Under the pieces are notes generated by a model, which ran no database searches, had not been told where the DNA came from, and saw only the letters and a program-made list of their open reading frames with translations. Source: Apiospora phragmitis (lineage: Eukaryota > Ascomycota > Sordariomycetes > Amphisphaeriales > Apiosporaceae). From it: a DNA stretch of 64,000 nucleotides. Both the position numbers and the translations under genes were made by a program. Positions 55,852 through 57,580 of the stretch are shown piece by piece. Positions within the stretch are counted from its first letter, which is position 1. Each line of letters starts with the position of its first letter. The stretch spans positions 5,890,001 through 5,954,000 of the forward strand of contig JAQQWL010000011.1 in the NCBI GenBank assembly GCA_038363925.1, given 5' to 3'.

Positions 55852-56714
55852 TTTGCGGATTGGGTTAGGAAATAGAGAAGGCTTTGAATTGATATGCTTA
55901 GGACCTGTAACTCTAAATAGGATATATGATCTTTTATCGTAGACTTGTTTGATTGAGATTGAGGATGATGAGGGGAAGGATAGGCACCTGGTTAATTGCT
56001 TTTGCTTTTATGGGACCGATAGCAATGTTGATCCCATCATCCCAGCTTTTGACATCACAACTGCTCTGCGAGCCGGAAACCTGCTGAGTTCGGCTGTACA
56101 ACGTATCAGGTAAATACGAAGGCCCCCCTGTCCGGTATTGAAATACCGTTTGGTAGCGGCGATACAGGTGGCGGTACGCCCGCGAAGAGGGATACCCTCC
56201 TCACTGTATATCGTGACCCCACACGCCGAGCGAAACTAACTTTACTACCTGGCAAGAGAGCTTTTAGTGGCTACGATTATCGTTCAGGGAAGTCGATACT
56301 TCCGTACTGCATGGAACCATCCCAGAGACCTTGGGCCGTACTGGTAGATCGTTGCCGCTACAAGGTTCACCAACACCGACTGTTACTGCGTAACAGAACA
56401 AATAACACAACATCTACCTATTCGACTAGTGGTCCACCACGTCGGGTCCGTATATCTCTGTTTGGGGTGGTTGTTGTTAGCTTTTTCTTACTATACTCAC
56501 CGATCCATCTACCATGCCAACATATGAAGTAGGCGACTTACTTTTGTCGTCTCTGCCATCCTCGTTGTTTGTCAAGCGTAATCGTCGTACCCAACCGAGT
56601 GCCTGAGAGAGGAGGCTTCTTCACACTTACCCACTTGGGAGACTACAGGAATTTGGCTGGTCCCCATCCCAAGTCAATAACCGGTTTAATCATATGTTAT
56701 CTTCATGGTCTTAT
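55852..56714. other. Intergenic region upstream of tRNA-Pro
   Basis: Promoter side of the minus-strand gene and 5' flank of the tRNA. GGTCTTA at 56707-56713 imitates the first seven tRNA bases just upstream of them. No gene seen. Confidence 0.5.
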
Positions 56715-56856
56715 GGTCTTGTGGTTTAGTGGTATAATTCTCGCTTAGGGCACATCCTGAGCATCATGCGAGAGGTCCCGGGGTAAGTGACAAATCCCTA
56801 CATGATGTGTGACGAATGACGACTAACAATGCGCAGTTCGATCCCCGGCAAGACCC
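56715..56856 (+). tRNA. tRNA-Pro(AGG) with an anticodon-loop intron and a second, spliceosomal-like insert in the T arm
   Basis: The acceptor stem is GGTCTTG (56715-56721) paired perfectly with CAAGACC (56849-56855), discriminator C at 56856. The A box reads TGGTTTAGTGG. The anticodon stem CTCGC/GCGAG (56740-56744 and 56768-56772) encloses TTAGGG plus T, so the anticodon is AGG. After base 37 there is a 16-nt intron (56751-56766) containing CCT, complementary to the anticodon, as in normal nuclear tRNA introns. The T arm is CCGGG, TTCGATC, CCCGG, but 54 nt (56783-56836) separate G53 from T54. Removing both inserts leaves 72 nt, the usual proline tRNA length, with every stem intact. T5 runs at 56878-56882 and 56884-56888 fit Pol III termination. 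Whether the gene yields a functional tRNA is open. Confidence 0.85.
56783..56836 (+). other. 54-nt spliceosomal-type intron inside the tRNA-Pro T arm
   Basis: The insert begins GTAAGT, has the branch consensus GACTAAC at 56821-56827 and ends GCGCAG, about ten bases after the branch point. Its length lies within the intron range of protein genes in this window. Its boundaries coincide exactly with the T-stem/T-loop junction, so precise excision restores the tRNA. It splits the B box, although the 3' copy still reads AGTTCGATCC, one base off the consensus start. Confidence 0.85.
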
Positions 56857-56877
56857 CAATATACATCTATATATATG

Positions 56878-56888
56878 TTTTTCTTTTT
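56878..56888 (+). terminator. Pol III oligo-T terminator of tRNA-Pro
   Basis: Two T5 runs separated by a C lie 22 bases downstream of the tRNA 3' end, on the sense strand. Confidence 0.6.
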
Positions 56889-57580
56889 CCTTTTTCTCCT
56901 CGGTATTTCTTCCTTCTTTTTGCTTTTGACTACCCCTCCTGATCCCTTGCTCGTGGATGGAAGATCCGTTTTTGAGAGAAAGAAGCAACATCAAGCCTGG
57001 GTTTACGAAGTCTGGCTGCATGCAAGTAGCTGTACTGAATTAGCATGCAAGGGAAATACGGCGTATGCTACGTAACGTTCTCATCTACGGCATTCTTGGC
57101 TCTATAGCTTAACGAGCTGTGCTAAAGTTGATACGTGCTTACTATACGGTGTCGCTTCATCCGTGGGGCTCTTGATAGAGCGAATGCACGATGCTATTTT
57201 TGGGGGTCAATATCGAGATGCATATGCTAGAGATGCGGCTATATATGGTGTCGTGGGCTAGCTGTATTAGCCAAAAAGAAGCCACCACTCGGAACGAGCC
57301 GCCATCTGTAAACCCCTCGATCAGCATGCAGCTGCAAGAGAATAGCGGCCTGCACCCTGAGCAGACTTGGATGCCCGTAAGCAGAGATCGTGCCTGGCCT
57401 AGTCAATAGGGCTTACTAGAGACTGCAGATCGTAACTATCGTCATGCTGAGTATAAGTACGAGATCATATTCTGCCTTGTATCACCATGGAGTTGACGCA
57501 TCCCATTCACATCCAACAGAGCCCTCATATCGTTTTGCAGACTCTCGAGATTATTTCCCCACCCCGTTGGCACAGTAAAC
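56889..57580. other. Intergenic region between tRNA-Pro and the secreted-protein gene
   Basis: Pyrimidine-rich just after the terminator. No gene seen. Confidence 0.5.

Follow-up and report, generated by a model that had tools for sequence, protein, structure and literature searches.

What places an insert with the signals of a protein-gene intron inside the T arm of a nuclear tRNA gene, and what would remove it from the transcript? This is the question raised by a tRNA-Pro(AGG) gene in the window, by which we mean the whole stretch of 64,000 nucleotides that was analyzed (G000:C11:5890001-5954000, in an assembly of 52.67 Mb in 19 contigs). Judged from its introns and from a 2EXR-family protein, the host is probably a filamentous ascomycete. 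The preliminary description of the gene reported an anticodon intron of 16 nt and an insert of 54 nt between bases 53 and 54; its coordinates were borne out, and the signals GTAAGT, GACTAAC and GCAG can be read directly in the insert. The parts of the gene, with the evidence for each, are as follows.

56715..56750, + strand: exon 1 of tRNA-Pro(AGG), bases 1-37, anticodon AGG (ARAGORN; same in five sister genes)
56722..56732, + strand: internal A box, at bases 8-19 (the sister genes agree letter for letter; we take its place to be that of tRNA genes in general)
56751..56766, + strand: anticodon-loop intron of ordinary type, 16 nt, after base 37 (ARAGORN i(38,16); the corresponding intron of the sisters has 17-18 nt)
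56767..56782, + strand: exon 2, bases 38-53 (sister comparison)
56783..56836, + strand: putative T-arm intron, 54 nt, between bases 53 and 54 (GTAAGT, CTAAC, GCAG; longest T run 1)
56783..56788, + strand: donor GTAAGT of the T-arm intron
56821..56827, + strand: branch site GACTAAC of the T-arm intron (branch A 56826, lying 10 nt before the intron end)
56833..56836, + strand: acceptor GCAG of the T-arm intron
56835..56845, + strand: B box in the unspliced gene, made of the intron AG and TTCGATCCC (12.1 bits, against 16.0 when joined)
56837..56856, + strand: exon 3, bases 54-72 and the discriminator base C, C56856 (sister comparison)
56878..56882, + strand: T5 run, likely the Pol III terminator, beginning 22 nt past base 72

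The limits of the 54-nt insert can slide by one G, so that GT...AG is one of two placements. ARAGORN, run with and without the insert, calls no tRNA in the interrupted gene or in the full stretch, and returns tRNA-Pro(agg) i(38,16) after removal of the 54 nt; with Rfam at the gathering level, the window gives no match. The joined product had been described as a fully paired tRNA of 72 nt. This length applies if C56856 is counted (our Pro(AGG) comparisons are based on the 71 nt up to base 72), and the acceptor and T stems do pair fully, but the D stem has, by our own reading, T13.T22.

Searching with the joined window gene brings up five places besides the window copy, all lacking the T-arm insert; these five sisters, which also answer the earlier proposal to count the remaining tRNA-Pro(AGG) genes, reveal the empty site. 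All six genes are identical over 71 nt of tRNA (0/71 changes) and vary in the anticodon intron, 16 nt in the window copy versus 17-18 nt in the others. A first guessed tRNA-Pro sequence, used as a pattern, gave zero matches. The GGGTTTC leader present in the five sisters is missing from the window copy; at 56707-56721, directly before GGTCTTG, GGTCTTAT forms a partial copy of the gene start that replaces it.

The window insert has counterparts at the bond 53|54 in five other nuclear tRNA genes, each with a GT...CTAAC...AG insert: two for Arg(TCG), two for Phe(GAA) and one for Pro(TGG). With the window gene, four isoacceptor families are affected at this one site, and these genes together with the insert-free sisters show that the insert is not a matter of chance. 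Four of them appeared in a search that did not presuppose the insert site, in which 17 tRNA sequences served as one query and the best 40 of 84 candidates were considered: matches are broken near base 53 in the Arg(TCG) genes on contigs C1 and C6 and in the Phe gene on C10, the match is shortened in the Phe gene on C4, and the inserts, of 57, 57, 58 and 65 nt respectively, all lie at 53|54. None of the six Pro(AGG) places is among these best 40 of 84. The tRNA-Pro(TGG) gene, also on C6, has an insert of 57 nt, lacks an anticodon intron and comes from a pattern search that assumes the site. Across the six genes the inserts measure 54-65 nt, the canonical anticodon-loop intron is also present in five, and ARAGORN calls none of them with the insert and every one without it. 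By our own count they are six of about 95 nuclear tRNA genes, both numbers being lower bounds and many of the 95 being known only from unbroken matches. The phenomenon is wider than first noted: these sequences point to a class of introns of spliceosomal type that share one bond of nuclear tRNA genes.

The pattern searches were run beside reversed controls, and their places were judged by eye and with the expression GT...CTRAY...YAG. Pattern CAGTTCGATTCC has 5 places (control 1), none a tRNA. Pattern YAGTTCGAAYCC has 44 (control 23), comprising the two known Arg genes, 20 further places that were read, one of them new (the Pro(TGG) gene), and 22 outside the reading, all of them TAGTTCGAACCC. 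Pattern YAGTTCGATYCC has 24 (control 14), made up of the window gene, five places already read and 18 newly read, with no new gene. All three are blind to the Phe genes, whose T arm ends differently. The sequence TAGTTCGAACCC is found in 23 of the 44 places of YAGTTCGAAYCC and is perhaps a repeat; the one such place that was read holds no tRNA. A covariance model of intron-bearing tRNAs was also built and was not accepted for this genome. In a genome search with RF00005, all six insert genes are absent from the best 63 of 1715 candidates; the five insert-free Pro(AGG) sisters are absent as well, so this result says little.

Other tRNA loci came to light alongside. At L049 300-430 (G000:C4:2638372-2638501, minus strand), a tRNA gene has a 58-nt anticodon-loop insert, GTAAGT...CTAAT...ATAG, at about 33|34; it may be spliceosomal, which would make it a seventh case of another kind, or else a long ordinary intron. 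Two tRNA-Gly(GCC) genes, L104 and L106 (G000:C11:8446460-8446640 and G000:C9:3103915-3104060), have short anticodon-loop inserts, and the Gly copy L105 has none. Contig G000:C19, where tRNA genes of mitochondrial type extend to about 220 kb, is probably a large mitochondrial genome.

In our view the 54 nt in the window gene are probably a spliceosomal intron of U2 type, removed by the spliceosome, within a tRNA gene transcribed by Pol III, and this genome would hold at least six introns of the kind at 53/54. All six inserts have a donor (GTAWGY), a branch site (CTAAC, its A 10-14 nt before the end) and an acceptor (YAG) at the spacing proper to U2-type introns. Their length, 54-65 nt, agrees with the 47-90 nt of 19 of 20 candidate protein-gene introns, length being the sole independent comparison with these candidates, which were themselves picked by motifs. 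The candidates were drawn from 236,929 bases of the window and loci, partly overlapping; they numbered 25 before repeats were removed, against one in the reversed control, and the twentieth (106 nt) overlaps a tRNA gene and is false. Inserts of different tRNA families are, by eye, unlike each other, and within the Arg pair, as within the Phe pair, the insert is shared. As to introners, recent intron families with many similar copies, a search with the window insert itself finds one genomic place at E up to 10, a limit that diverged copies could escape. The spliceosomal reading offered in the preliminary description is supported, and in more than one gene.

The inserts, at 53/54, do not occupy the 37/38 position of a canonical tRNA intron. 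They might still be tRNA introns in an ectopic position, excised by the tRNA splicing endonuclease in the manner of a red alga, with a splice-site look that is secondary. As far as the accessible part of PMC4090602 goes, T-arm introns occur in nucleomorphs, where the means of removal is unknown, and non-canonical introns that depend on a bulge-helix-bulge (BHB) motif occur in the red alga. A relaxed BHB score, which leaves room for such cleavage, was matched by 18 of 300 shuffles for Pro(TGG) and by 39 of 300 for Arg C6, in a test without power, which failed to single out the ordinary anticodon introns as well. Such a substrate has no use for a donor, a branch site and an acceptor, and all three are there in 6/6 inserts, which makes endonuclease cleavage very unlikely in our judgment.

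A further possibility, already raised for the window gene, is that the insert is a captured intron that killed it. Extended to the six genes, this would mean that spare tRNA copies captured spliceosomal introns, and that what we see are pseudogenes not yet decayed. Insert-free sisters do exist for Pro(AGG) (five), Arg(TCG) (one) and Phe (four), the window copy lacks the usual leader motifs, and the acceptor stem of Pro(TGG) has two U.U mismatches, 5-68 and 6-67; moreover, D- or T-arm insertions in eukaryotes are described, in the part of PMC4090602 available to us, as lying mostly in one of many synonymous genes, supposed pseudogenes. The pairs of related genes argue in the other direction, because each pair shares an intron that has diverged while the exons are identical or changed only in compensated pairs. 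For the Arg pair, the exons show 0/72 changes and the T introns 5/57 (Fisher p 0.015), and upstream 36 of 73 aligned bases differ. Phe C4 and Phe C10 differ by six exon changes that form three compensated pairs (6-67, 7-66 and 49-65), a covariation reached by 20 of 500 shuffles with three rows only, and Phe C10 is distinguished from the four insert-free Phe copies solely by base 57. The splice signals, too, are kept in all six genes; with the inserts removed, the cloverleaf is recognized by ARAGORN throughout, and the acceptor and T stems equal those of the sisters in Pro(AGG), Arg and Phe. In addition, a DNA search of the genome at E up to 10 with the joined Pro(TGG) gene, which can miss things, returns a single place, the insert-bearing gene, and no insert-free copy. 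We therefore regard the killing of all six genes as unlikely. For the window copy the idea retains some force: this copy is redundant with its five insert-free sisters, and its function, taken alone, is less sure than that of the Arg and Phe copies.

The two Phe T-arm introns (L096 and L097) share two conserved hairpins, one hiding the donor and one with the branch site (-17.5 and -17.6 kcal/mol). Outside the splice signals these hairpins have 0/20 changes between the pair, versus 12/24 elsewhere in the introns (p 0.0001, with classes drawn post hoc). The donor of both lies within a perfect 8-bp hairpin, which could be a hindrance to U1.

Features of Pol III genes accompany the inserts. A T4 run starts 22, 4, 5, 12, 12 and 17 nt past the six genes (counted from base 72 or 73), that is, within 22 nt downstream in 6/6 compared with a background of 5.8%. 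The inserts themselves have no TTT, which is weak evidence, because TTT is absent also from 9 of the 20 candidate protein introns, and TTTT, absent from 12 of the 20, is likewise a weak control for T runs. CAA occurs within 25 nt upstream of five insert genes, the window copy being the exception, and of 47/59 nuclear genes (background 31%). At the B box, the AG that ends the intron keeps G53 in the unspliced gene and gives AGTTCGANNCC. The Pro and Arg boxes score 12.1-12.5 bits with the intron versus 16.0-16.4 when joined, and the Phe boxes 8.2 bits either way; all six interrupted boxes (8.2-12.5 bits) fall below the weakest reference box, 13.9, in a matrix of 7 distinct boxes from which 10/59 genes, unmatched by the B-box expression, are excluded. 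Insertion at 53|54 is perhaps tolerable for the B box, though the box is poorer than in intact genes. The borrowed AG gives no account of why inserts at other positions did not turn up.

The intron signals are those typical of Pol II genes, and one could suppose that Pol II makes the tRNAs, as exons of long 5' UTRs or of noncoding RNAs from which they are cut out after splicing. The close T4 run kept in 6/6 genes speaks against this, as do the surroundings of the window copy, which lies between a leftward ORF (first ATG 55851) and a rightward stop-to-stop ORF from 57579, with only ORFs of 55-85 aa from 56200 to 57400 in the ORF list. We find a Pol II origin barely credible.

For a spliceosomal intron in a Pol III gene, we envisage the following course, in which the transcription by Pol III, the spliceosomal removal, the order of steps and the use of the product are all inferred. 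Pol III would be recruited by the A box and a nearly whole B box, in which the intron-final AG replaces G52-G53 (AG|TTCGANNCC), and the T run downstream of the gene would end the transcript. Within the nucleus, the spliceosome would then excise the T-arm intron as it does with S. pombe U6, after which the tRNA would fold and the tRNA splicing endonuclease and ligase would take out the anticodon intron.

The Pro(TGG) gene gives this course its widest consequence. Among the 178 proline codons counted over six coding stretches, 35 are CCG, and under the usual decoding rules an AGG tRNA does not read CCG, so the Pro(TGG) gene is possibly essential. We tentatively suggest, as a proposal that may well fail, that the spliceosome is here an essential tRNA processor: the sole tRNA-Pro(UGG) gene and several others would have been invaded at the B-box bond GG|TTCGA, and the reading of CCG would depend on splicing.

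A U6 snRNA gene of the same genome (L068 1501-1660, G000:C8:277890-278049) carries a 61-nt insert, GTAAGT...TACTAAC...CACAG, that falls between the adjacent U residues of GAU|UAGC, at about position 49|50 of the U6 model, and, unlike the tRNA inserts, contains one TTT. It also contains GTTCAAATC, a possible B box; a possible B box is likewise said to exist in the S. pombe U6 intron, and the mRNA-type intron of the S. pombe U6 snRNA gene was reportedly described by Tani and Ohshima (1989, 1991). A second U6-like gene (L067 1501-1613, G000:C9:3094216-3094328) has no intron and a diverged 5' stem, and an SRP RNA gene is present in the genome. The earlier statement that Pol III transcripts normally miss the spliceosome must be qualified by S. 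pombe U6, a known exception in which, according to the accessible part of PMC10484740, an mRNA-type intron is spliced and an origin by reverse splicing has been proposed, and by the U6 insert in this genome.

Introns of tRNAs and spliceosomal introns are usually treated as separate worlds with separate machines. If the inserts are what they seem, Pol III transcripts besides U6 can use the spliceosome, translation is coupled to splicing, and the gain of spliceosomal introns can be followed cleanly at a single site of a structured RNA, with the empty site known from sister genes. In the open-licence literature, outside which most subscription journals fall, titles and abstract openings gave no sign that a nuclear tRNA gene with a spliceosomal intron has been described, and the available parts of PMC6461891 and PMC11782384 contain no such case; PMC11782384 does cite a paper on spliceosomal introns in nuclear rRNA genes of ascomycetes. 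In tRNAscan-SE 2.0, as set out in the portion of PMC8450103 at hand, non-canonical introns are sought in candidates of the archaeal search model, and eukaryotic genes of this kind are therefore likely to be overlooked.

Among known systems, S. pombe U6 resembles the present case in having a spliceosomal-type intron in a Pol III transcript (PMC10484740, in part). Unlike a tRNA, however, U6 sits at the catalytic core of the spliceosome, so that reverse splicing by accident during catalysis offers itself less readily as the source of the inserts described here. The introns of nucleomorphs and of Cyanidioschyzon merolae are similar in that they lie in T arms and that some tRNAs have two or more, and excision has been shown there for some; those of Guillardia theta differ in measuring 3-24 nt, in the red alga BHB motifs matter, and no GT...branch...AG arrangement is described in the accessible sections (PMC4090602). 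Canonical nuclear tRNA introns have another position and need no spliceosomal signals, and they co-occur with the T-arm inserts in 5/6 genes. Nuclear rRNA genes of ascomycetes carry spliceosomal introns at many sites in a Pol I host; these are alike in being mRNA-type introns in the gene of a noncoding RNA, whereas here the hosts are of Pol III type and the introns occupy one site in 6/6.
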